Part shown: piece after piece, positions 5,880 through 23,178 of the stretch
Numbering within the stretch: the first letter of the stretch is position 1
Layout of the letters: every line of letters begins with the position of its first letter
Assembly (NCBI GenBank): GCA_947485745.1
Contig: CANKQY010000023.1
Coordinates: 1-32,299, forward strand
DNA from: Bacteroidota bacterium
Lineage (GTDB): Bacteria > Bacteroidota > Bacteroidia > UKL13-3
Direction of reading: 5' to 3'
DNA length: 32,299 bases
Program-made: the position numbers and the translations under genes
The notes under the pieces: model-generated
What the model saw: only the letters and a program-made list of their open reading frames with translations
Databases searched by the model: none
What the model was told of the DNA's origin: nothing

Positions 5880-6353
5880 TTATAGTTGTTTTTTTTGCCC
5901 TTCGACATGCTCAGGATGACCTAATGACGACGTCATGGTGAGCTTGTCGAATCCATGATTACCAATGGTTTTAATTGTTTTTAAAATGGCTTTGGCAACT
6001 TTGGGGTCAATAATTACGGTATCGTGTTCAAAATCTAGTTTGATGCGCCATTTTTGGAAGGTATTTACCCCAAGGATTACTTCTTCTGATAAGCCTGGAA
6101 TGACCATAAATTCATCTGAGAGTCGGATGTCGTTGAAATAAAAATCCATGGCAACTCGATGGGTTATTTTTAAATAATGACCTTCTGCTGCAGTTGCAAT
6201 TTCTAATGGTTTTCTTAGTTTAACTTGAGTTTCTAGTCCTTCCACAGCCTCCGCACTGATGCATGAGAAAGTGGCACCCGAATCAAAGAGTGTATAAAGG
6301 GTTTTCTCACCTTGTGAGCCCTCAAAATGAAGTGGTAACTTAATAATCGACAT
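5880..6353 (-). CDS. Small retropepsin-like aspartic protease domain protein with REP-derived tail
   Basis: 157 residues with a single pepsin/retropepsin half-domain: the active-site triad Asp24-Ser25-Gly26 in TLFDSGATFSC and a second hydrophobic motif, VILGVNTFQKW (about 103-113), like the ILGxxxL seen after the active site in clan AA proteases. Such single-domain proteins would act as dimers. No signal peptide is visible, so it is probably cytosolic. The last 25 residues (from NHGFDK to the end) are encoded by a REP-like palindrome (5901-5951) and contain the telltale PEHVEG string, so the native C-terminus was probably shorter, ending near residue 132. The gene lies between the M1 peptidase and ALDH genes; substrate unknown. 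Confidence 0.78.
   Translation of the reverse strand: MSIIKLPLHFEGSQGEKTLYTLFDSGATFSCISAEAVEGLETQVKLRKPLEIATAAEGHYLKITHRVAMDFYFNDIRLSDEFMVIPGLSEEVILGVNTFQKWRIKLDFEHDTVIIDPKVAKAILKTIKTIGNHGFDKLTMTSSLGHPEHVEGQKKQL
5901..5951. repeat. REP-like palindrome inside the retropepsin-like coding sequence
   Basis: The arms 5901-5920 (ttcgacatgctcaggatgac) and 5932-5951 pair at 17 of 20 positions around the short centre ctaatgacgac. The core TTCGACNNGCTCA is the same as in the repeats at 31205-31351. On the minus strand the element is translated as part of the protease's C-terminal tail, including PEHVEG, a string commonly produced when such repeats are read through. Confidence 0.8.
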
Positions 6354-13281: not shown

Positions 13282-13426
13282 TAGCCAATAAAAATGGCCC
13301 CTCAGAGTAAGGAGTAAAAAGAAATTCTGAATTCAACATTCTGAATTACTTATTTCAGTACAACAGGATTTTTAAATATTTATCGTCTAATTTGCAGTTA
13401 GGTATTTTATATCTTGCCGCTTAATA

Positions 13427-14119
13427 ATGAAGGTTAAATTTTTGTTTATTTTATTGTTGTTATTCTCTTTCAGGTTACAAGCCCAGAACAAGGTTTTGCC
13501 TGTATTGTTAAGTCCTGTTTTTGGCGAACAAAAGCTATATTTAGGAACGGATTGGTATCACATAGCACTTGCGGATAGCATACAAATTCAAGTGCTTAAA
13601 TTTTATGTTTCTAAATTACGTTTGTTAGAAAAAAGTAAAGTTGTTTGGCAGGAAGAAAATAGCTTTCATTTAGTTGATTTAGAAAATCCCACATCACTGA
13701 AATGGAATTTATTAATACCTCCAACCATCACTTTTTCGCAAATCTCTTTTGATTTAGGAATTGATAGCATTACCAATGTTTCTGGAGCTTTGGGAGGTGA
13801 TTTAGATCCTACAAAAGGTATGTATTGGACTTGGCAGAGTGGGTATATCAACTTTAAATTAGAGGGTTTTGCGCCTTCTTCTTCAGCAAATAAAAATGAA
13901 TTTCAATTCCATTTAGGGGGTTACCAATACCCGTTCTTGGCTTGTAAAACAATTATTTTGGATCAAATCAATGAGGCTGGTTTTGTAATTGAAATCGATT
14001 TAAAAAAGGTTTTGGTTCAAGCCGATTTAAATAAAGTAAACCATATCATGTCGCCTTCAATTGAAGCGGTTAAATGGTCGCATTGGGTTCAAAAATCTTT
14101 TAGCATATCCCCTGAATGA
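13427..14119 (+). CDS. MbnP-like copper-associated exported protein
   Basis: 230-residue protein with a signal peptide (MKVKFLFILLLLFSFRLQAQ). It resembles the MbnP family: the core FDLGIDSITNVSGALGGDLDP followed by GMYWTWQSGYINFKLEG (about 131-147) is the family signature, with Trp134 and Trp136 in the MYWTWQSGY motif, and a C-terminal HLGGYQYPF segment. In methanotrophs MbnP is the substrate of the di-heme enzyme MbnH, which converts a tryptophan to kynurenine so that the protein binds copper; whether Trp134 or Trp136 plays that part here is inference. It is the first gene of an eight-gene plus-strand operon; its stop overlaps the start of the MbnH-like gene by four bases. The upstream spacer (13282-13426) has TAATTTG at 13389-13395, one base short of the promoter consensus, and two copies of attctgaatt. 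Confidence 0.85.
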   Translation: MKVKFLFILLLLFSFRLQAQNKVLPVLLSPVFGEQKLYLGTDWYHIALADSIQIQVLKFYVSKLRLLEKSKVVWQEENSFHLVDLENPTSLKWNLLIPPTITFSQISFDLGIDSITNVSGALGGDLDPTKGMYWTWQSGYINFKLEGFAPSSSANKNEFQFHLGGYQYPFLACKTIILDQINEAGFVIEIDLKKVLVQADLNKVNHIMSPSIEAVKWSHWVQKSFSISPE

Positions 14120-15153
14120 AGAAAAGATTTTTTTTAATTTTATTAGTATTCATTACCATTTTTGCATTTAGGTTTAGGTCTGAACCAATTTTTGTTGCGC
14201 CGAAAAATTGGCCTAAAACGAGCTATGATTTTAAAAAGAATCCTTTGACTCCAAACAAAATATTATTGGGAAGAGCCCTTTTTTATGATCCAATTTTATC
14301 TAAGAATAATACTATTTCCTGTTCAAGTTGTCATTCTCAATATACAGCTTTTACGCATGTAGATCACTCCTTAAGTCATGGCATTGATGACAGAATTGGC
14401 AACCGTAATTCCCCAGCTTTAACGAACCTGGCTTGGCATACAAATTTTATGTGGGATGGAGCCGTCAATCATCTAGATATGCAAGCTTTAGCGCCTATCA
14501 ATCATCCAAGTGAAATGGGAGAAAACATAAAAAATGTAGTAGCTAAATTGCAACATTCACACTTGTATCCTGATTTGTTTTATCAAGCTTTTAATGATAG
14601 TATTATCAATGGTGAAAGACTATTGAAATCTATTTCGCAATTCATGTTAACACTTGTTAGTTCAAACTCAAAATACGATTCTGTGGTGCGTGGTGAAGGG
14701 ATGTTTACAAGTCAAGAGGAGAGGGGTTATCTGTTGTTTAAAAAGAATTGTAATACTTGCCATACGGAACCATTGTTTACCAATTTGCAATTTGAAAATA
14801 ATGGTCTAAGCGTTGACCCATTTCTAAAGGATTATGGGCGTTTTAGGGTCAGCCAGAACCCACAAGATTCTTTTAAGTTTAAAGTGCCAACGTTGCGTAA
14901 TATTGAGTTTTCATATCCTTATATGCACGATGGTAGATTCAAGAAAATTTCTGAGGTATTGAATCACTATGTGTCACAAAAGAGTAAAGTTAGCAATTTA
15001 GCAAAAGAATTATCTGAACCATTTGTATTATCGCCCAACGAAAAAGTTGATTTAACGGCGTTCTTACTCGCCTTAACCGACAAGCATTTTCTATTCAATC
15101 CTTCCTATTCTTACCCTCGAGAAGTGTTTTTTGGAAGAGCGAATGGAAAGTGA
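14116..15153 (+). CDS. Di-heme cytochrome c peroxidase-like protein (MbnH/MauG type)
   Basis: 345-residue periplasmic di-heme protein. An N-terminal hydrophobic segment (MKKRFFLILLVFITIFAF) exports or anchors it. The two heme c sites are CSSCH (69-73) and CNTCH (212-216), with the bacterial CCP/MauG hallmarks LGRALFYDPILSKNNTISC, RNSPALTNLAWHTNFMWDG, NHPSEMG, VPTLRN and PYMHDGRF (about 268-275). Members either reduce hydrogen peroxide or, as in MauG and MbnH, use a bis-Fe(IV) state to oxidise residues of a partner protein. The four-base overlap with the MbnP-like gene makes the MbnH role the best reading. The distal ligand residue that would separate true peroxidases from modifying enzymes cannot be fixed without an alignment. 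Confidence 0.9.
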   Translation: MKKRFFLILLVFITIFAFRFRSEPIFVAPKNWPKTSYDFKKNPLTPNKILLGRALFYDPILSKNNTISCSSCHSQYTAFTHVDHSLSHGIDDRIGNRNSPALTNLAWHTNFMWDGAVNHLDMQALAPINHPSEMGENIKNVVAKLQHSHLYPDLFYQAFNDSIINGERLLKSISQFMLTLVSSNSKYDSVVRGEGMFTSQEERGYLLFKKNCNTCHTEPLFTNLQFENNGLSVDPFLKDYGRFRVSQNPQDSFKFKVPTLRNIEFSYPYMHDGRFKKISEVLNHYVSQKSKVSNLAKELSEPFVLSPNEKVDLTAFLLALTDKHFLFNPSYSYPREVFFGRANGK

Positions 15154-15188
15154 AATTAAATCGTCTAAAAAATGAAATCAGAAATAAA

Positions 15189-16892
15189 ATGAATACAAAG
15201 AAAAATACTTTAATCGCTTGTTTAATGATGATGTTTGGTTTTATAACCAAGGCACAATATAACAATATGGCCATTCCGGATACCTTGTCTGGTACAACCT
15301 TTAATTTAAATATTAAAGATACCTTTTCACAAATAGTGGCATCGGGTAACCAAACCATAACAGCTGGTATTAATGCCAAATTTTGGGGTCCAACTTTGTT
15401 CATTAATAAGGGAGATACCGTGAGAATGAATGTAAAGAACGGTTTAAATGATTCTACTACTCTGCATTGGCACGGCATGCATTTACCAGCTGTGATGGAT
15501 GGTGGTCCGCACCAGGTAATTCCTCCAGGCACCTTATGGCAGCCATATTGGAAGGTTCAAAATGATGCAGCAACTTATTGGTACCATCCGCATTTACATG
15601 AAATGACAATGGAACAAATAACCAAAGGTATTGGTGGATTAATTATAGTGAGAGATGAAGTAGAGTCTGCACTTCCATTACCAAGAACCTATGGTGTTGA
15701 TGACATTCCATTGGTGCTGACTGATAGAGATTTTAGTGCCTCAAATCAATTTGGGTTGGTGCCATACGGCGATAGTATGTTAACCAACGGAACTTTGAGA
15801 GCTCAATACAATGTGCCTGCACAAGTAGTGCGTTTTAGGGTATTAAACGGAGCCATTGAGCGTTCTTATAATCTAGGCTTTAGCGATAATAGAACTTTTT
15901 ATATCATTACCTCTGATGGTGGTTTACTTGATGCACCTGTAGCTGTTACTAGCTATATTTTACATGCTGGAGAAAGAGTAGAGATTCTAGTTAATTGTTC
16001 TGCTGATTCAGGAAAATCTATTGATTTGAAGGCATATAATTCAAAATTGATACAAAATGTTGCTGGTGGAGATTTATTTCCTAATGGACCTTTTGCTAAT
16101 TTCTTAGCCAGAAAAGACTTTAATATTTTACACATAAATGTTGTTGCACAAACTGCTAAACCCATTACAACTATTCCAACTGTTTTAAGAACCATTACAC
16201 GTTTGTTGGCAGCAAATGCCAATACAACGAGGTACCTAACCATTACCGATACCATTATTGTAGGCGTGCAAGGGGTTGCATTTGTTATTAACCACAAGTT
16301 GTTCGATATTAATTACGATAATTATGATGTGCCATTGAACAATACAGAAATATGGGAGATTAAAAGCACATCAAATTTTGGACATCCATTTCACATTCAT
16401 GATGTAGAGTTCAATGTTTTATCTGTAAATGGTACCGCGCCTGCTGCCGCTCAAGCTGGCTGGAAAGATGTGGTATTTATTCCTGCGCGACAAACAGTTA
16501 GGTTCATAGCTAAGTTTGATGATTTTGCAGATCCTTTACATCCCTTTATGTATCATTGCCATATTTCTTTGCATGAAGATGAAGGCATGATGGGGCAATT
16601 TATCGTTACTAGTGCAACTTCTGGCTTAAGTGCACTAAGCAAAGATCAAGGTAGCTTTACCTTATACCCTAATCCAAGTAATGATAAGGTATATTTTAAT
16701 TTTGCCGATCCAAATGCAAAGGTATATTATATCACTATTCTCAATTTAATGGGTAAAGCAATTCGTATGTTACCGCAACCAGAATGGCAAAACGGAATCG
16801 ATGTATCGTCACTTGCCAATGGTGTTTATTTTATGCAAGTAACAGATGAAAAAACAAAAACTGTTATTACAAAAAAGTTTGTTAAAGAATAG
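15189..16892 (+). CDS. Laccase-type multicopper oxidase with T9SS sorting tail
   Basis: 567-residue secreted oxidase. All copper-ligand motifs are intact: HWHGMH (93-98), YHPHLH (132-137), HPFHIH (399-404) and HCHISLHEDEGMM (456-468), where Cys457, His462 and Met467 complete the type 1 site. Three cupredoxin domains are followed by a type A sorting tail beginning at FTLYPNPSND (about 490-499) and ending in TKKFVKE. Start: a GTG at 15150 in the same frame would add 13 charged residues; the ATG at 15189 starts a proper signal peptide (MNTKKNTLIACLMMMFGFITKAQ) and is preferred. Family members oxidise phenols, Cu(I), Mn(II) or Fe(II) with reduction of oxygen to water. No methionine-rich Cu(I) segment of the CueO type is obvious. 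The gene follows the MbnH-like gene by 35 bp, which favours a copper or extracellular oxidation role. Confidence 0.93.
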   Translation: MNTKKNTLIACLMMMFGFITKAQYNNMAIPDTLSGTTFNLNIKDTFSQIVASGNQTITAGINAKFWGPTLFINKGDTVRMNVKNGLNDSTTLHWHGMHLPAVMDGGPHQVIPPGTLWQPYWKVQNDAATYWYHPHLHEMTMEQITKGIGGLIIVRDEVESALPLPRTYGVDDIPLVLTDRDFSASNQFGLVPYGDSMLTNGTLRAQYNVPAQVVRFRVLNGAIERSYNLGFSDNRTFYIITSDGGLLDAPVAVTSYILHAGERVEILVNCSADSGKSIDLKAYNSKLIQNVAGGDLFPNGPFANFLARKDFNILHINVVAQTAKPITTIPTVLRTITRLLAANANTTRYLTITDTIIVGVQGVAFVINHKLFDINYDNYDVPLNNTEIWEIKSTSNFGHPFHIHDVEFNVLSVNGTAPAAAQAGWKDVVFIPARQTVRFIAKFDDFADPLHPFMYHCHISLHEDEGMMGQFIVTSATSGLSALSKDQGSFTLYPNPSNDKVYFNFADPNAKVYYITILNLMGKAIRMLPQPEWQNGIDVSSLANGVYFMQVTDEKTKTVITKKFVKE

Positions 16893-16937
16893 TATTTGTT
16901 TAAAGAGTTAAATTATAATAACATAATTATTAATCAT

Positions 16938-18296
16938 ATGAAAAGACTATTTACGTTTGGCGTTTTGCTATTTTTAGGATTAGCTAGTTTTGCGCAAGGC
17001 CCTGCCGTTACTTCATGGCTTCAAAATACTACTGGTATAAAAGGCAGGCATTATATAAGAAACAATTCTACGGCTATCAATGATGCAGATTCTGCAAATG
17101 TGCTAGGCGTTTATTATTCTGCTGCATCAGTTTATATAAGAGCTAATGGGGTGCCTGCTTATGTTACAGGTCCATTTTTAGATGGCAATCCTTCTATTAC
17201 AACAAGCCAAAATGCCATCTTTAAAATCACATTGAGCCCAGTTCAAAATACAGGAGTAGCTACTCCTACTTCAGGAGGAAATATTGGTATTTTTACCAAT
17301 GGTGTTGCCATGTTTGATTATAGAGACGGCGTTTCTTGGCAAAATTCTACCAATTCGCTAAAAGGCGGACCACTTGGTGGTATGGGCGATGGCGTTTGGA
17401 ACCGCGATGCTATTCTTGCAGAGCGAGGTGGTTTCGATTGTGCCAAAGGTCACCCTGCAATGGGCAACTATCACCATCACCAAAACCCCAGTGCATTTAA
17501 ATTGGATCAAATCGTAATTTCTACCGTTTGTAATTTGTACGATGCCGATGGTTTATATGTAATTGATTCAACCAAACATTCTCCACTTATTGGATATGCT
17601 TATGACGGCTTTCCGGTTTATGGTGCTTATGGATATAAAAATGCCGATGGCACAGGAGGCATAGTAAGGATAAAATCAAGTTTTACTTTGCGTAGTATTA
17701 CTACTCGCACAACTTTATATACCGGAGCTACAGTAACAGCTGGTCCTCCAGTGAATGCTACTTATCCTTTGGGCTTATTCAGAGAAGATTATCAGTACAA
17801 CGCTACTTCCGCTGCTACCCCTGATTATTTGGATATTCACAACGGAAGATTTTGTAAAACGCCAGAATATCCTAATGGCATTTATTGTTATTTTGCAACT
17901 GTAGATGTTAATTGGAATTCAGCTTATCCATATTTAATTGGGCCAACTTATTATGGTGTAAGAACTCCGGCAAAGGTTACTTCAATCACCGAAGCCGTTA
18001 CCCAATATAAACCTGGTGCAACTGGGTTAAACGCTTTCAAAAACCATAGCTTACAAATTTCAGTTTTCCCTAATCCTGCGAATGATATAGTTGCTGTGCA
18101 AAGCGATGGTTTAACAGCAAGTGATTTAAAAGTTGAGCTGTTTGATATGAGTGGTCGCTTAATTCAAACAAGTTCTATTTTTCAAGGAAGTACCATAGCA
18201 TATTTTGACACCAGAACTTTATATAGCGGCGAGTATATCATTAAAGTAAGCAGTGATATTGAAATTTCTGTGAAGAAATTAATTTTAACAAAATAG
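16938..18296 (+). CDS. Secreted YHYH-domain protein with T9SS tail
   Basis: 452-residue protein with a signal peptide (MKRLFTFGVLLFLGLASFAQ). The body matches the YHYH family: FTNGVAMFDYRDGVSW (about 119-134), a histidine cluster GHPAMGNYHHHQNP (171-184), and GYAYDGFPVYGAYGY (219-233), then LDIHNGRFCKTPEYPNGIYCYFATVD. The variant NYHHHQ replaces the usual YHYH. A type A sorting tail starts at ISVFPNPAND (about 373). The start at 16938 is preferred over an upstream TTG at 16896 because it begins the signal peptide. The family is uncharacterised; histidine clusters suggest metal binding, and the neighbours suggest copper, both inference. The last 240 bp are nearly the same as the end of the DUF1566 gene (22825-23064). 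Confidence 0.85.
   Translation: MKRLFTFGVLLFLGLASFAQGPAVTSWLQNTTGIKGRHYIRNNSTAINDADSANVLGVYYSAASVYIRANGVPAYVTGPFLDGNPSITTSQNAIFKITLSPVQNTGVATPTSGGNIGIFTNGVAMFDYRDGVSWQNSTNSLKGGPLGGMGDGVWNRDAILAERGGFDCAKGHPAMGNYHHHQNPSAFKLDQIVISTVCNLYDADGLYVIDSTKHSPLIGYAYDGFPVYGAYGYKNADGTGGIVRIKSSFTLRSITTRTTLYTGATVTAGPPVNATYPLGLFREDYQYNATSAATPDYLDIHNGRFCKTPEYPNGIYCYFATVDVNWNSAYPYLIGPTYYGVRTPAKVTSITEAVTQYKPGATGLNAFKNHSLQISVFPNPANDIVAVQSDGLTASDLKVELFDMSGRLIQTSSIFQGSTIAYFDTRTLYSGEYIIKVSSDIEISVKKLILTK
18057..18296 (+). repeat. Duplicated T9SS-tail coding module, copy 1
   Basis: These 240 bp, encoding the sorting tail of the first YHYH protein, align without gaps to 22825-23064, with long identical stretches such as gatatgagtggtcgcttaat. 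The other T9SS tails of the operon are clearly different, so this pair is a recent duplication or gene conversion. Confidence 0.85.
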
Positions 18297-18337
18297 GATT
18301 TAATTAAGGTACTTCGGTTTGAACCAAAAATAAATAG

Positions 18338-18940
18338 ATGAAACAACGAAGGTGGCTGATAATACTATTGTTTCCATTGATGTTAACTTTTGGTTTTAAC
18401 TCAAATAAAGACAAGAAGCCGCTGACTGATTTTTCATTATTGAATGTGGATGGCAACTTTGTTTCTTTAAAAGATTATCCAAATGCAAAAGGATTTATAA
18501 TTGTTTTTACCTGCAATCATTGTCCTTTTGCAAAATTATATCCTGAACGCCTAAATGCCTTAAACTCGAAATATAAACCACTTGGAATACCTTTAATTGC
18601 TATTAGCTCTACTGATAGTATTTTGTATGAAGAAGATGGATACATACAAATGGTTGAGAAGGCAAAAATGGAACATTTTAATTTCCCTTATCTGAGTGAT
18701 AATTTGCAGGTAGTAGCCAAACAATACAATGCCCAAAAAACACCGCATGCATTTATCATTTGGCAAGAAAAAAAAGAATGGAAAATTAAATACAGTGGTG
18801 CCATTGACGATAATGGTTCAGAACCTGAAAAGGTGGAGAATCCTTATTTATCAATAGCGGCAGATCAACTGTTAGCAGGAAAAAAAGTTAGCACTCCAGA
18901 AACAAAATCTATAGGGTGCCAGATTTATTTTAGAAAATAA
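18338..18940 (+). CDS. Exported thioredoxin-fold protein (AhpC/TSA-like, CxxC)
   Basis: 200-residue protein with an N-terminal hydrophobic export or anchor segment (RRWLIILLFPLMLTFGF). The thioredoxin-like domain covers about residues 28-180 with the redox motif Cys59-Asn-His-Cys62 in FTCNHCPFAK, the cis-proline segment KTPHAFII, and IPLIAISSTD. This layout is that of the peroxiredoxin-like group often annotated as redoxin or thioredoxin family protein in Bacteroidota. In this operon it may keep cysteines reduced or assist metallation or cytochrome c maturation; that is inference, and a Sco-like copper role would need a conserved distal histidine that I cannot assign. It is preceded by a 41-bp spacer containing the motif TCGGTTTGAACC and followed after 17 bp by the second YHYH gene. 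Confidence 0.88.
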   Translation: MKQRRWLIILLFPLMLTFGFNSNKDKKPLTDFSLLNVDGNFVSLKDYPNAKGFIIVFTCNHCPFAKLYPERLNALNSKYKPLGIPLIAISSTDSILYEEDGYIQMVEKAKMEHFNFPYLSDNLQVVAKQYNAQKTPHAFIIWQEKKEWKIKYSGAIDDNGSEPEKVENPYLSIAADQLLAGKKVSTPETKSIGCQIYFRK

Positions 18941-18957
18941 ATTAATAAATATATATT

Positions 18958-20568
18958 ATGAAGAGAGTTGTTTTTTTATCCTTACTACTTATAGTTAGCT
19001 TATTCATAGCTGCTCACACTATTAATTATAACAATGCTATTTTGCGACCATGGCAACTAGAAAAGGGAAATAAAACCATTTATGCCTCTTTTGTGATGTT
19101 AAAATTAGGGGATGTTTATTTAGAAAATTTGAATGGAAAGATAACTCATTTTCCATTGTCAAATTTTTCTGCGGCAGATCAAGAATTTGCCATTCAAAGA
19201 AATGAGCTTATTAAGGACATCAATTTTGGAAATCATGAAAAGGATCATAGTGAAAAGTTAAATTTCAATTTTGGGCAAACACTTTTTATAATAATGGTAT
19301 TTTTGATACTTGTCTTTCTCACTTTTTATTTTATTTTGGGAAGAAATAGTAGTTACCTAAAACCAATATTAATTATGGGTACGGTGATTACACTTTATGG
19401 TTTTACTCATAGTGTAATGCGGGTTATGAAAACTTCAACTAGTCCTGCCTTTATTGATTCTGCTTTTGCACCTTTTAAGCCTGATGTAAATACACATTTT
19501 GATGGAAATTATTTTTACGTAGAAACAAAAGGAAATCCTAAGCATCCTATGATGAATGGAATTAGCAACTGGCAACAGCAAGTGCCTATACCGCAATGTT
19601 ATACTGGCACTAATTACTGGAGTATTCCTTTAAACCCTGTTAAAGCAACAACACCTGTACCGGTAAATTCATCGCACTTTTTACGTGGAGCAGTTGCTTT
19701 GGCAGCAAATGGAATAGCCATATTTAATCCATATACCAATACTGGAGTAGATGCATATTTAGATGGTCAATTGGATCAGTATGGTGGACATTGCGGTAGA
19801 GCTGATGATTACCATTACCATATAGCACCTGTTTTTTTAGACAGTATTTCACCTGAAATTTTACCAATTGCATTTGCCCTCGATGGTTATGCAATTTATG
19901 CTAGTCGTGAGCCAAATGGCACTTCAATGGCAACCTTAGATGTAAATCATGGTCATATAGGTGGAAACGGTGTTTATCATTATCACGGAAGCGCTTCAGC
20001 CCCTTATATGATTGGCAATATGGTTGGTGTAGTAACAGAAGATTCAACTAAACAAATCATACCTCAGGCTGCTGCAAAGCCAATTAGACCTGCCGGTGCG
20101 CCATTGGCTGGGGCACTTATTACAAGTTGTGTGCCCAATGGAACCAATACAGGATATACCCTAAACTATACCAAAGGTGGTCAAAATTATTCTGTGGTAT
20201 TTAGCTGGACTACTAACGGCGTTTACACTTTTCGTTTTATTTCTCCAACGGCAACAACCAACTCAACTTATAATGGTTTTATTCCATGTGTTTCTTCAAC
20301 CTCAACTATTTCAGAGATTGCTGAAATGGATAACAGTATTTTGATGTATCCAAATCCCAGTAATGGTAACTTGTATTTTAAGCTAAATAATAAATTATTG
20401 GAGAAGGAAATTGAGAAAATTAGCATCTATAATTTAAGTGGTGAATTGGTATATGAAAATGATGCTTACAAACCAATGATTGATTTGAAAAATTTAAGAA
20501 AAGGAATATATATGGTGAATATAGGGCTAACTAATTTGCAACTCACAAAAAGGCTGGTGATAGAATAA
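18958..20568 (+). CDS. Membrane-anchored YHYH protein with SHD1-like N-terminal domain and T9SS-like tail
   Basis: 536 residues in an unusual order. Signal peptide about 1-20; residues 29-81 (RPWQLEKGNKTIYASFVMLK to FAIQRNE) resemble the SLA1-homology SHD1 fold: R.W, A.FV, G.V.LEN..GK, FPLSNFSAADQEF. Two hydrophobic segments follow (107-127 and 134-152). The YHYH domain covers about 175-360, with GHCGRADDYHYHIAP (277-291), FALDGYAIYAS (306-316) and GHIGGNGVYHYHGSA (332-346), the canonical family signature. A sorting-like tail begins at ILMYPNPSNG. The tail on a protein with internal membrane helices is odd, since T9SS substrates are normally soluble. Function unknown; the two His-rich sites suggest metal binding. 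Gene spacing (17 bp before, 6 bp after) puts it firmly in the operon. Confidence 0.83.
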   Translation: MKRVVFLSLLLIVSLFIAAHTINYNNAILRPWQLEKGNKTIYASFVMLKLGDVYLENLNGKITHFPLSNFSAADQEFAIQRNELIKDINFGNHEKDHSEKLNFNFGQTLFIIMVFLILVFLTFYFILGRNSSYLKPILIMGTVITLYGFTHSVMRVMKTSTSPAFIDSAFAPFKPDVNTHFDGNYFYVETKGNPKHPMMNGISNWQQQVPIPQCYTGTNYWSIPLNPVKATTPVPVNSSHFLRGAVALAANGIAIFNPYTNTGVDAYLDGQLDQYGGHCGRADDYHYHIAPVFLDSISPEILPIAFALDGYAIYASREPNGTSMATLDVNHGHIGGNGVYHYHGSASAPYMIGNMVGVVTEDSTKQIIPQAAAKPIRPAGAPLAGALITSCVPNGTNTGYTLNYTKGGQNYSVVFSWTTNGVYTFRFISPTATTNSTYNGFIPCVSSTSTISEIAEMDNSILMYPNPSNGNLYFKLNNKLLEKEIEKISIYNLSGELVYENDAYKPMIDLKNLRKGIYMVNIGLTNLQLTKRLVIE

Positions 20569-20574
20569 ATTATA

Positions 20575-21813
20575 ATGAAAAGCATGAATAAATCATTTTT
20601 ACTTCTAATGTTTCTTCCCATTTTTTCAAGGGCACAATATACTGGAACAGCTTCTGTAACGAGGGGTTTGGCAACAACGGTTACTACTAACCTTTATACT
20701 TGTGCAGGTGGAAGAATAGCTGGTCTTGGCACAATTAAAGCACAAGATAGCACGGTATGGACGGTTCCTGCAGTTGTAAATTTTAGTAATTTAAGTTTTC
20801 CTTTTGCTTCTGATTTACATAATCCATGTAATGGAAATAATTATGCTAATTCCACTGCGGCGCTAGCCGCTTTAAATGGTTCAGATATCGTCACTGTAGA
20901 TGCAAGTGGAGAAGTTATTACTGCCTATATTTTTGCCGACAATTATTTTGAAATGTATATCAACGGAACTCCGGTTGGTAAGGACAATGTTCCATTTACT
21001 CAATTTAATTCTAATATTATTCGGTTCAAGGTTAATAGGCCTTTTACTATTGCAATGTTGCTAGTAGATTGGGAAGAGCATCTAGGTTTGGGTTCAGAAG
21101 TAAATGGCCCTAGCCAATATCACAATGGCGATGGAGGAATGGTGGCAGTTTTTAAAGACGCTAAAAATAATACGATAGCAATCACCGGAAATAATTGGAA
21201 GGCACAAACATTTTATACTTCACCTATAGCAGATTTAACTTGTCCTAAAGAAACTGGAACTATGCGTTCAACTTCCTTATGTAGCACTGCCGATGTTAGC
21301 AATGGAAGTTTGCTTTATGGCTTGCATTGGGAAAGGCCAAATAACTGGACTAAAAGTTCTTTTGATTTCAGCAACTGGCCCGCTGCTAGTGTATACAGCA
21401 ACGCAACAGTTGGCGTAGATAATAAATCTGCGTACACAAATTTTGTTAATATATTTGATGATTCTGCCAATGATGCGCAGTTTATTTGGAGTACAAATCT
21501 TATTCTAGATAATGAAGTTATTGTTAGGTATACAGTTCCAGCTTCGACAGGAATAATTAACAATGGACTTAATCGGAATGAGGTAATAGTATATCCTAAC
21601 CCAGCTACGAAAGAATTCAAACTCTCTTCTGATGAAAGCACCATAATTGAAAATATAAGTAAAATAATTATAAGCAATCTCTTTGGTGAGGTTGTACTAG
21701 AAACTGATAACTACAAGGGAGCTGTTAATACTGAAAATATTTCTCCGGGAATTTATTTTCTAACGATTGAAACAAATAGAAAGCAACTTATAAAGAAGTT
21801 AATCATAGAATAA
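20575..21813 (+). CDS. Secreted galactose-binding-like beta-sandwich protein with T9SS tail, function unknown
   Basis: 412-residue secreted protein, signal peptide about 1-20 (ATG at 20584 is an alternative start). I do not recognise the family firmly. The middle resembles galactose-binding jelly-roll domains: ADNYFEMYINGTPVGKDN (121-138), FTIAMLLVDWEEHLGLGSE (157-175), HNGDGGMVAVFKD (183-195) and NNWTKSSFDFSNWPAASVY (256-274). The N-terminal part has a threonine-rich NLYTCAGGRIAGLG segment. Four cysteines (43, 85, 223, 236) could form disulfides. The sorting tail begins at VIVYPNPATK and ends KKLIIE. Its position 6 bp after the second YHYH gene suggests that the two act together at the cell surface, perhaps with the VDWEEH and QYHNGDGG residues as a ligand site; this is inference. 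Confidence 0.75.
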   Translation: MKSMNKSFLLLMFLPIFSRAQYTGTASVTRGLATTVTTNLYTCAGGRIAGLGTIKAQDSTVWTVPAVVNFSNLSFPFASDLHNPCNGNNYANSTAALAALNGSDIVTVDASGEVITAYIFADNYFEMYINGTPVGKDNVPFTQFNSNIIRFKVNRPFTIAMLLVDWEEHLGLGSEVNGPSQYHNGDGGMVAVFKDAKNNTIAITGNNWKAQTFYTSPIADLTCPKETGTMRSTSLCSTADVSNGSLLYGLHWERPNNWTKSSFDFSNWPAASVYSNATVGVDNKSAYTNFVNIFDDSANDAQFIWSTNLILDNEVIVRYTVPASTGIINNGLNRNEVIVYPNPATKEFKLSSDESTIIENISKIIISNLFGEVVLETDNYKGAVNTENISPGIYFLTIETNRKQLIKKLIIE

Positions 21814-21822
21814 AAAGTTTAA

Positions 21823-23064
21823 ATGGCTGCAAAAATTATTGGAAACCTATTCAAATTTGAATTAATAGTTTTATTGGTTTTTTTGTGCAGCAATTTAACC
21901 TTGGGGCAAACTCAATTTACAATGTTGCGCTTACCAGATACAGGACAAAGCAATAGTTATACTGCAACTTTTGGCGAAGACAATGATTATAATATTTATG
22001 TTCCTTTTTTTATTGTAAATGGAAATGGTACAGTAACCGATACGATAACCACCTTGCTTTGGCAGCAGAAAGATGGAGGAGAAATGACAATTGAAAATGC
22101 ATCATTGTATTGTGATACTTTAACGTTCGGAGGTTTCACTGATTGGCGCTTGCCAAATAATCAAGAGGCCTTTAGTATACTAAATCATCAATTTACTAAC
22201 CCTGCTTTAAATACTAACGTCTTTACTAAAACTGCAGCAGAGTATTGGTGGTCAAGTGATAAACAGGTTGGTGATGTTTCAAAGGTATGGTGCACAAATG
22301 CTGGAGGTGGAATTGGCAATCATCCAAAATTAGAGACAATTAGTGGTGGTGGCACAAAAAAGTTTCATGTTAGGGCAGTTCGCAATATTGGAGAAAGAAT
22401 CCTAGATAGTCATTATTCAAATTTTGGAAATGAAACACTTATTGATAATGCTACAAAATTGTTGTGGCAAAAGACGTTATTTCCCACAAAATTAACTTGG
22501 GAACAAGCGTTAACCTATGCTGATACTTTAAGTTTTGCAGGTTACACTGATTGGCGCGTACCAAATATCAAAGAGCTGCATTCTATAGCTGAAACTTATT
22601 GTAGCAATCCAGCGGTAAACACAGCTTTTTTTGCCATTAGTGGAAAGATAAAAATTTGGTCGTCTACTACCTTACCTAATGAAATTGGAAAGGCGTGGTA
22701 TTTGGATACACAGTATGGCATTACTACCTATGATGACAAAACGAATAGCAATTACTTGATTTGTGTTCGCGGTCCTTTTTCTCTATCCACGGGACTAAAA
22801 CTGAATTCAGCAGCAATTAAAGAAATTTCAGTTTTCCCTAATCCAGCGAGTGATTTAGTTGCAGTGCAGAGCGATGGCTTAACAACAAGTAATTTAAAAG
22901 TTGAGCTATTTGATATGAGTGGTCGCTTAATTCAAACTAGTTCTATTTTTCAAGGGAGTCCTATAGCGTATTTTGATACCAGAAATTTGTTTAGCGGCGA
23001 GTATATAATTAAAGTAAGCAGTGAAACAGAATTGTATATAAAGAAATTGGTTATAACTAAATAG
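21823..23064 (+). CDS. Secreted protein with two DUF1566 (Lcl C-terminal-like) domains and T9SS tail
   Basis: 413 residues with a hydrophobic signal segment (residues 11-28). Two tandem DUF1566 units are visible: unit 1 from about 70 to 188 (TLLWQQKDGG ... FGGFTDWRLPNNQEAFSIL ... HVRAVRN) and unit 2 from about 210 to 322 (ATKLLWQKTLFPTKLTWEQAL ... FAGYTDWRVPNIKELHSI ... YLICVRG, quoted in part). The paired LLWQ and DWR(L/V)PN motifs are diagnostic. A type A tail starts at ISVFPNPASD and nearly duplicates that of the first YHYH gene. DUF1566 proteins are surface or secreted, sometimes adhesion-related; role here unknown. It is the last gene of the operon and is followed 19 bp later by a strong terminator. 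Confidence 0.87.
   Translation: MAAKIIGNLFKFELIVLLVFLCSNLTLGQTQFTMLRLPDTGQSNSYTATFGEDNDYNIYVPFFIVNGNGTVTDTITTLLWQQKDGGEMTIENASLYCDTLTFGGFTDWRLPNNQEAFSILNHQFTNPALNTNVFTKTAAEYWWSSDKQVGDVSKVWCTNAGGGIGNHPKLETISGGGTKKFHVRAVRNIGERILDSHYSNFGNETLIDNATKLLWQKTLFPTKLTWEQALTYADTLSFAGYTDWRVPNIKELHSIAETYCSNPAVNTAFFAISGKIKIWSSTTLPNEIGKAWYLDTQYGITTYDDKTNSNYLICVRGPFSLSTGLKLNSAAIKEISVFPNPASDLVAVQSDGLTTSNLKVELFDMSGRLIQTSSIFQGSPIAYFDTRNLFSGEYIIKVSSETELYIKKLVITK
22825..23064 (+). repeat. Duplicated T9SS-tail coding module, copy 2
   Basis: Gap-free 240-bp partner of 18057-18296; both copies end exactly at the stop codon. Protein differences are few (for example AND/ASD, TASD/TTSN, TLYSG/NLFSG), while the upstream domains of the two genes are unrelated. 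Confidence 0.85.
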
Positions 23065-23083
23065 TCTCGTTATCACACTAAAC

Positions 23084-23124
23084 AAAAAAAAGAGGCTGTC
23101 GAAAATCAACGGCCTCTTTTTTTT
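23084..23124. terminator. Bidirectional hairpin terminator between the operon and infB
   Basis: A perfect 13-bp stem (aaaaaaaagaggc at 23084-23096 with its complement at 23112-23124) encloses a 15-nt loop. A-run and T-run flank the GC core symmetrically, so it can end transcripts from both the plus-strand operon (stop 23064) and the minus-strand rimP-nusA-infB operon (stop at 23179). Confidence 0.9.
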
Positions 23125-23178
23125 AATAGGTTAATTAGAAAACTATTTACTAATTATTATCAGATTAGTAATTCAGAA

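Follow-up and report, generated by a model that had tools for sequence, protein, structure and literature searches.

A run of eight genes in a 32,299-nucleotide contig of a Bacteroidota bacterium (CANKQY010000023.1, assembly GCA_947485745.1; the whole of this stretch is called the window below) looks like a real, little-described system, the parts of which recur side by side in distant relatives. The genes, located at positions 13427-23064 of the plus strand, fall into two blocks: block A, consisting of MbnP, MbnH and the YHYH protein YHYHa together with an oxidase-redoxin pair, and block B, consisting of a second YHYH protein (YHYHb), the protein p7 and the double Lcl_C protein Lcl. The core of the system is the pair YHYHb-Lcl and not the combination of MbnP/MbnH with the oxidase. 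Tentatively, and rating it somewhat below an even chance, we read the operon as an envelope system for copper loading and oxidation in which both blocks are joined. Its features are listed in the following.

13427-14119, plus strand: gene 1, MbnP-like protein (PF20243) with a signal peptide (by eye), a WxW motif (W134/W136) and no sorting tail
14116-15153, plus strand: gene 2, MbnH/MauG-like di-heme c protein with CSSCH and CNTCH motifs and Tyr285 in place of the Met of the bacterial peroxidase 3o5c
15150-16892 (start perhaps at ~15189), plus strand: gene 3, CueO-like multicopper oxidase in which all copper-ligand motifs are intact, ending in a type IX tail
16896-18296 (16938 is the likelier start), plus strand: gene 4, YHYHa, full-length YHYH domain and type IX tail
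18338-18940, plus strand: gene 5, AhpC/TSA-redoxin with a weak ResA match, a CNHC motif, a signal peptide (by eye) and no tail
18958-20568, plus strand: gene 6, YHYHb, in which a signal peptide (by eye) is followed by an SHD1-like domain, a hydrophobic hairpin, a YHYH domain containing the YHYH motif twice, and a type IX tail
20575-21813, plus strand: gene 7, p7, beta-sandwich resembling carbohydrate-binding parts of lectins and glycosidases, with the type IX tail as its sole Pfam match
21823-23064, plus strand: gene 8, Lcl, two Lcl_C (DUF1566) stretches and type IX tail
~23084-23125, plus strand: intrinsic terminator, AAGAGGC ... GCCTCTT followed by a T run (by eye)
13282-13426, plus strand: upstream intergenic region of 145 bases, where the promoter is expected; no motif was established in it

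As listed, genes 1/2 and 2/3 overlap by 4 bases each, and the remaining gaps amount to 3, 41, 17, 6 and 9 bases; the later starts of genes 3 and 4 suggested by alignment with relatives would give gaps of 35 and 45 bases. This tight same-strand spacing and the closing hairpin agree with the operon-like unit of the preliminary description, which had given eight plus-strand genes with overlaps or gaps of 4-45 bp and one terminator at the end. The hairpin was not among the output of the consensus scanner, presumably because its loop exceeds 8 bases.

The conservation of the neighbourhood was analyzed around YHYHb. One genome per species was scanned and the best 80 of 425 relatives (42-56% identical) were kept; 37 of these loci had wide flanks on both sides, and many loci were cut by contig ends. 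Partners were counted by profile thresholds, and neighbouring open reading frames (ORFs) of at least 110 aa outside the eight window families were clustered. Lcl was found in 61 of the 72 loci with room for it, directly adjoining YHYHb or fused to it in 39 of the 72, and in four loci both form a single protein (the fusions in L048 and L054 were confirmed with Pfam). Six neighbour clusters occurred in more than five of the 80 loci: phosphoesterases (arylsulfotransferase among them), their apparent antisense ORFs (antisense status judged from the coordinates of one example), HupE, extracytoplasmic function (ECF) sigma factors, Spy/Metal_resist proteins and sulfatases. All other clusters were confined to five loci or fewer. 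Since only six clusters recur beyond five loci, the shared arrangement is not background synteny. Phosphoesterases were the commonest extra partner (48 of the 80 loci). The other counts were HupE 26, p7 25, ECF 22, the Spy-like type Spy4 19, redoxin 11, YHYHa 11, oxidase 10, MbnP, MbnH and sulfatase 9 each and the type Spy9 5. MbnP-MbnH-YHYHa and oxidase-redoxin recur in 9-11 loci, and the redoxin was present in all ten loci that carry the oxidase. Three of the 37 loci with wide flanks (L014, L050, L064) had no partner above threshold. Among the neighbour members tested, proteins with Metallophos, Sulfatase and Arylsulfotrans matches carried sorting tails. The exported metallophosphoesterases often stand two in a row, for example at L010 6550-9969 (Metallophos, with a weak purple acid phosphatase N-domain). 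A heavy-metal P-type ATPase (HMA, ATPase-cat_bd), which we take to be of the CcoI type, was encoded near YHYHb-Lcl in L025, L029 and L030 (in L030 by clustering only).

The fullest match seen was L013, a metagenome-assembled genome (MAG) labelled Chitinophaga pinensis, in which ECF, Spy9, MbnP, MbnH, oxidase, sulfatase, YHYHa, a thioredoxin-like protein, redoxin, YHYHb, p7, Lcl and a further sulfatase follow one another in one direction. The preliminary description had asked beforehand whether the genes co-occur beyond close relatives; they do so in MAGs of several labelled groups (the loci include MAGs labelled Bacteroidetes, Ignavibacteria, Kapaibacterium and Chlorobiota) and in the 296-genome data described below. 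The centre that it had assumed, the pairing of MbnP/MbnH with the oxidase, had to be given up: MbnP, MbnH and oxidase occur together in only four of the 80 YHYHb loci (L006, L013, L018, L040) and the oxidase in none of the 96 MbnP regions (up to 10 kb flanks). The steadiest pair is YHYHb and Lcl.

Presence and absence were determined in 296 genomes of the phylum, with cut-offs that were chosen after the lists were known and that lie in a wide gap for YHYHb (429 to 98 bits) and in a modest one for the oxidase (725 to 598). YHYHa was found in 13 genomes (E 1e-50), YHYHb in 9 (>400 bits), p7 in 6 (E 1e-20) and the oxidase subtype in 5 (>700 bits). YHYHb was accompanied by YHYHa in 8 of 9 genomes (0.40 expected), the oxidase by YHYHa in 5 of 5 (0.22 expected) and p7 by YHYHb in 5 of 6 (0.18 expected), and all three associations persisted without the window's own genome. 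Any MbnP was present in 9 of the 9 YHYHb genomes (2.4 expected). These nine genomes represent five families, four genomes coming from one, and some of the 80 YHYHb loci apparently derive from genomes that also belong to the sample. In each of the five oxidase genomes, less than 10 kb separates the oxidase from YHYHa or YHYHb (the window, L224, L225, L228 and L239). The order is oxidase-redoxin-p7-YHYHb-Lcl in G204 and G220 (with HupE before Lcl in G204) and YHYHa-oxidase-redoxin-sulfatase in G192, and in G101 the oxidase stands ~8 kb from YHYHa. As the blocks are apart or differently ordered in other genomes, the window joins two blocks. The source genome has a HupE/UreJ gene (L242 298-1421, G000:C85), but on another contig, unlinked to the operon and with no second copy of the locus beside it. 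It is divergent from a small gene, the product of which looks exported by eye.

MbnP was present in 78 of the 296 genomes (77 above the cut-off), i.e. in about a quarter of the sampled phylum. For the above-cut-off matches except the window's own, regions of up to 10 kb on each side were analyzed (n = 96; three below-cut-off matches were left out). MbnH was found in 94 of these regions (absent in L192 and L195, weak in L180), YHYHa in seven (L134, L138, L146, L151, L152, L189, L198) and Spy9 with ECF ahead of MbnP in four (L138, L144, L146, L189). Besides, a family without a Pfam match in the member tested (L130 11576-12562) stood beside MbnP/MbnH in 24 of the 96 regions, and a further family was found in six, its one tested member (L145) being SCO1/SenC.

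A quick tree was computed from 102 MbnH sequences. The 18 that have a YHYH gene within their own fetched region grouped with three others (support 87), and a clade of 17 rows (support 99) contained 16 YHYH-linked ones. The linkage label required four changes on the tree, compared to a mean of 16.9 after shuffling, and none of 500 shuffles was as low. The three unlinked members (G101, G144, G192) carry YHYHa elsewhere in the genome. Since the 21 grouped rows are of mixed origin (ten came via the YHYH searches, ten via MbnP and one is the window), the tree shows clustering and not a linkage rate; the agreement of the subclade with YHYHa (11 of 12) is partly circular and was given no weight. The operon's MbnH falls inside the YHYH-linked group. 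The source genome encodes a second MbnP-MbnH pair (L139 9572-11524, G000:C7), the MbnH of which falls outside the group on another branch and which has no YHYH neighbour within the fetched stretch.

At the level of the single proteins, the intact di-heme motifs, the intact ligands of four copper sites, the two YHYH proteins, the CxxC protein, the double DUF1566 protein and the five sorting tails of the preliminary description were all recovered. Gene 1 passed the Pfam cut-off of MbnP (131.7 bits vs 27), and W134 and W136 were invariant in 9 of 9 aligned sequences, the window included (a ninth relative, the fragment of L006, was left out). No match was obtained for MbnP by sequence against solved structures. 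Gene 2 gave a CCP_MauG match in Pfam (177.6 bits), and both haem sites (C69/C72/H73 and C212/C215/H216) were invariant in 9 of 9 aligned sequences. The same holds for Y285, which pairs with a Tyr in 6e1c and a Met in 3o5c and presumably stands where peroxidases have their Met ligand. The known action of MbnH is the conversion of a Trp in MbnP to kynurenine; no paper showing this conversion was among those listed in the literature search on MbnP/MbnH.

Gene 3 contains three Cu-oxidase domains (Pfam), and its motifs HWHG, HPH, HxFHIH and HCHxxxHxxxxM were invariant in 8 of 8 aligned oxidases, with the His/Cys positions and M480 kept. Its best NCBIfam match was CueO with 377 bits, below the equivalog cut-off of 525. 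Gene 5 is the CxxC protein, a redoxin (AhpC-TSA, 57.2 bits) with the motif CNHC.

Both YHYH proteins exceeded the Pfam cut-off for PF14240 of 25 bits (188.4 for YHYHa and 52.4 for YHYHb), gene 8 showed two Lcl_C stretches, and Por_Secre_tail was matched in genes 3, 4, 6, 7 and 8 with 46-52 bits. The structure models of p7 and YHYHb likewise match the sorting tail of 8glk_D. As the source genome encodes the SprA_N protein of the type IX system, these tails can probably be used. Lacking a tail, MbnP, MbnH and the redoxin should remain periplasmic; the earlier designation as a cell-surface system is therefore borne out for five of the eight products and not for these three. For p7, the only operon product outside known families, the carbohydrate-binding likeness proposed before was recovered in a weak form: the model resembles sugar-binding beta-sandwich domains weakly, and the best non-tail matches by VIA-align have a Z of ~8 (3w5m, 6kc2), which may reflect a common arrangement. 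By sequence, YHYHa, YHYHb and p7 matched known structures in the sorting tail only.

The architecture of YHYHb was followed in an alignment of 52 sequences, the window protein and 51 others; the latter were taken from the 70 ORFs, out of a total of 81 for YHYHb, that are 480-640 aa long. Shorter tail-less forms were left out, and the other alignments were likewise prepared without short fragments. The model of YHYHb (mean pLDDT, the predicted local distance difference test, 76.7; pTM, the predicted template modelling score, 0.55) has a confident N-terminal domain, which resembles Sla1 homology domain 1 (SHD1; 2hbp) with a root-mean-square deviation of 1.5 over 46 columns and 24% identity but an E of 0.041; apart from this short match, the fold gave a clear match only in the tail. 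The Pfam family SHD1 (PF03983) reached 15.5 bits on the window protein, below the cut-off of 23.7, and matched 20 of the 52 aligned sequences with an E of at most 0.05. In 50 of the 52 there is a hydrophobic stretch at 95-130 (by Kyte-Doolittle only), and 43 have a second one at a looser threshold. Two YHYH motifs were present in 52 of 52, the second being invariant. The YHYH domain is modelled with low confidence in some parts, and hence no metal site was derived from the model. The sorting tail was found in 51 of the 52, which is not a family rate, as the set was picked by length and tail-less forms are under-represented. For example, four of the nine YHYHb matches in the 296-genome sample (G101, G113, G144, G162) do not reach the tail, stopping around position 443-455 of the 538 in the model; L080 and L081 also seem tail-less as judged by length and C-terminus. 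Recoding was considered because of the in-frame TGA counts in G101, G113 and G162 and was set aside, the match overrunning the ORF end by 18-30 bases according to the coordinates. In L051 (9929-11572) a single stop divides YHYHb into two ORFs of the same direction, which may mean a pseudogene or an assembly error.

In some relatives the block is preceded by genes for an ECF sigma factor, a small protein with one transmembrane segment and a Spy-like protein, and Sigma70_r2/r4 and Metal_resist matches were obtained there with Pfam (Metal_resist in the two Spy4 members tested). The source genome carries such a row away from the operon (L243 8530-9862, G000:C4), consisting of ECF (204 bits), a one-segment protein and a Spy9-family protein (66 bits). 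The one-segment protein of L063 gave no Pfam match, and its designation as an anti-sigma factor is based on its position and its single segment. Probably the ECF cassette controls the operon in trans.

According to the copper-loading reading, MbnH as a MauG-type di-heme protein would oxidise a Trp of the WxW motif of periplasmic MbnP, which would then bind copper. The redoxin may keep copper-binding cysteines reduced, and MbnP may contribute copper to the CueO-like oxidase before the latter leaves the periplasm. Once loaded, the oxidase would be exported in the folded state via the type IX system, along with YHYHa, p7 and Lcl, and could oxidise copper(I) or phenols at the cell surface beside YHYH metalloproteins and glycan-binding partners. 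YHYHb, with its SHD1-like domain and hairpin, may keep the assembly attached to the inner membrane until it is exported or processed. We infer copper as the metal because of family knowledge (MbnP/MbnH, CorA/MopE, multicopper oxidase), the oxidase-redoxin pair and the ATPases near three loci. A further suggestion, which we regard as improbable, is that the YHYH-linked MbnH subclade modifies the exported YHYHa and not only MbnP, forming a Trp- or Tyr-derived metal site that would work with the exported oxidase. If true, this would mean a new substrate class of MauG-type enzymes and the first role for a YHYH domain.

Several observations weigh against the copper-loading reading. MbnP and the oxidase are destined for different compartments, and the presence in YHYHb of both a membrane hairpin and a type IX tail is contradictory and hard to reconcile, unless cleavage removes the hydrophobic segment or this segment does not anchor the protein in a membrane. 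Neither gene 1 (33.5 bits vs 140 for the MbnP equivalog TIGR04052) nor gene 2 (210.4 bits vs 362.85 for the hypoth_equivalog TIGR04039) reached its NCBIfam cut-off; TIGR04039 is still the best NCBIfam match of gene 2. Most YHYHb loci, many of them cut by contig ends, show neither oxidase nor MbnP/MbnH, so that block B may serve a purpose other than copper handling, and 14 of the 37 loci with wide flanks show no member of the eight families classed as metal-related (ECF, Spy4, Spy9, oxidase, redoxin, MbnP, MbnH, YHYHa), while phosphoesterases (48 of 80) and sulfatases (9 of 80) are neighbours of YHYHb. At the looser limit of E 1e-100 the oxidase is found in ten genomes, five of which have YHYHa. 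Furthermore, the species are not independent, and the P values of the co-occurrence are consequently too small. Concerning regulation, the Spy9 type, which stands before MbnP, gave no Pfam match in the one member tested (L013); its name therefore rests on look and place, and it was read as a "metal sensor" by eye. In the source genome a match was obtained with the Spy9 profile but none with Metal_resist (PF13801) or Spy4. A search for a shared promoter by gapped pentamer pairs upstream of 27 ECF genes yielded at most four shared cases, some of them due to loci that are almost identical; the 12 most frequent pairs were all absent upstream of both the window operon and the ECF cassette on contig C4.

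Three other explanations were considered. The operon could serve copper detoxification, copper excess being signalled via an ECF/envelope sensor to a surface CueO-like oxidase, with MbnP and the YHYH proteins as copper sinks and without any acquisition. CueO as the best match of the oxidase (377 bits) and the ECF sigma and Metal_resist-type genes that adjoin the locus in relatives would fit, as would the copper-responsive control of Myxococcus oxidases by CorE/CorSR, as given in the accessible parts of PMC3707914 and PMC3107203. The operon has no efflux pump, however, and kynurenine-type CorA is repressed by copper according to the accessible part of PMC3912023. Moreover, the ATPase of the three loci has the ATPase-cat_bd domain, which we associate with CcoI/FixI assembly ATPases and not with resistance pumps. 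We consider detoxification rather unlikely and rank it second after copper loading and oxidation.

In third place, and a little more doubtful again, is a surface system for the binding and hydrolysis of environmental polymers, for which the YHYH proteins would be metal-dependent hydrolases acting with Lcl, p7, phosphoesterases and sulfatases, and the copper proteins would only mature or assist them. This would account for the frequent phosphoesterases and sulfatases, for the tailed members among them (Metallophos, Sulfatase, Arylsulfotrans) and for the resemblance of p7 to lectins and glycosidase modules; in addition, a phage paper, in its accessible part, predicts YHYH to be a Zn-binding, Zn-dependent hydrolase (PMC7824862). 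The hydrolase activity is only a prediction, however, and the window operon contains neither phosphoesterase nor sulfatase but an oxidase and the linked MbnP/MbnH subclade. Finally, unrelated exported proteins could have come together by chance because they share the type IX route or a regulator. Blocks A and B are indeed also found apart, and three of the eight products are tail-less. Against this stand the same families side by side in several bacterial families with a co-occurrence far above expectation, the four loci with YHYHb-Lcl fusions and the clustering of the linked MbnH sequences on the tree, and a chance merger appears very unlikely to us.

The copper-loading reading can be compared with known systems. 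Like the methanotroph MbnP/MbnH pair (TIGR04052/TIGR04039), the operon pair consists of adjacent genes with a WxW motif, a di-heme MauG-like partner and a Tyr replacing the peroxidase Met, but it stays below both NCBIfam cut-offs, is joined to YHYHa and an exported oxidase and belongs to a separate subclade. According to the accessible part of PMC3621798 the pair is conserved far beyond the methanobactin producers. No mbnA/B/C-type genes were found among the 18 window proteins in the Pfam scan; the genome itself was not searched for them. Kynurenine copper sites with co-transcribed di-heme proteins are known for CorA/MopE (PMC3912023, accessible part). CorA/CorB and MopE/SACCP resemble the operon in combining a copper protein with a di-heme c partner, part of the system being at the surface, but they are from methanotrophs, and the accessible part of this source mentions no oxidase or YHYH partner. 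Gene 3 shares three Cu-oxidase domains and all ligand motifs with CueO-type oxidases and differs by its score below the cut-off and its type IX tail, which implies a surface location and not the periplasm as for CueO. The row of ECF, one-segment and Spy/Metal_resist-like proteins in relatives and in the source genome resembles Cnr-type sigma/anti-sigma/sensor systems. It also resembles Myxococcus CorE/CorSR, as far as the accessible parts of PMC3707914 and PMC3107203 go. In contrast to these, the cassette of the source genome is unlinked to the operon and its Spy9 type is without a Pfam match. Compared to plain YHYH proteins (PF14240), YHYHb adds the SHD1-like domain, the membrane hairpin, the second invariant YHYH motif and often the sorting tail.

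All products of the operon except p7 belong to known families. Among the matches listed in the open-licence literature (titles and abstract starts) no description was found of the combination of genes, of its link to an MbnH subclade or of the YHYHb architecture. Nothing was found there for YHYH together with MbnH, and the literature on YHYH proteins or domains concerned phages and diatoms by title. We know of no studied role of MbnP in the phylum Bacteroidota. The locus links a single MbnH subclade with defined partner genes and a possible regulator and thereby makes this role testable. The findings furthermore place the uncharacterised YHYH domain in a metal context and suggest that type IX export brings a copper oxidase to the surface; the SHD1-hairpin-YHYH-sorting tail architecture does not easily agree with what we know of type IX cargo.

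Outside the operon, the next gene downstream is convergent and presumably infB, as read from its translation. A short protein with retropepsin-like aspartyl protease matches (RVP_2, gag-asp_proteas) is encoded at 5880-6353 of the window, between peptidase M1-type and aldehyde dehydrogenase genes.

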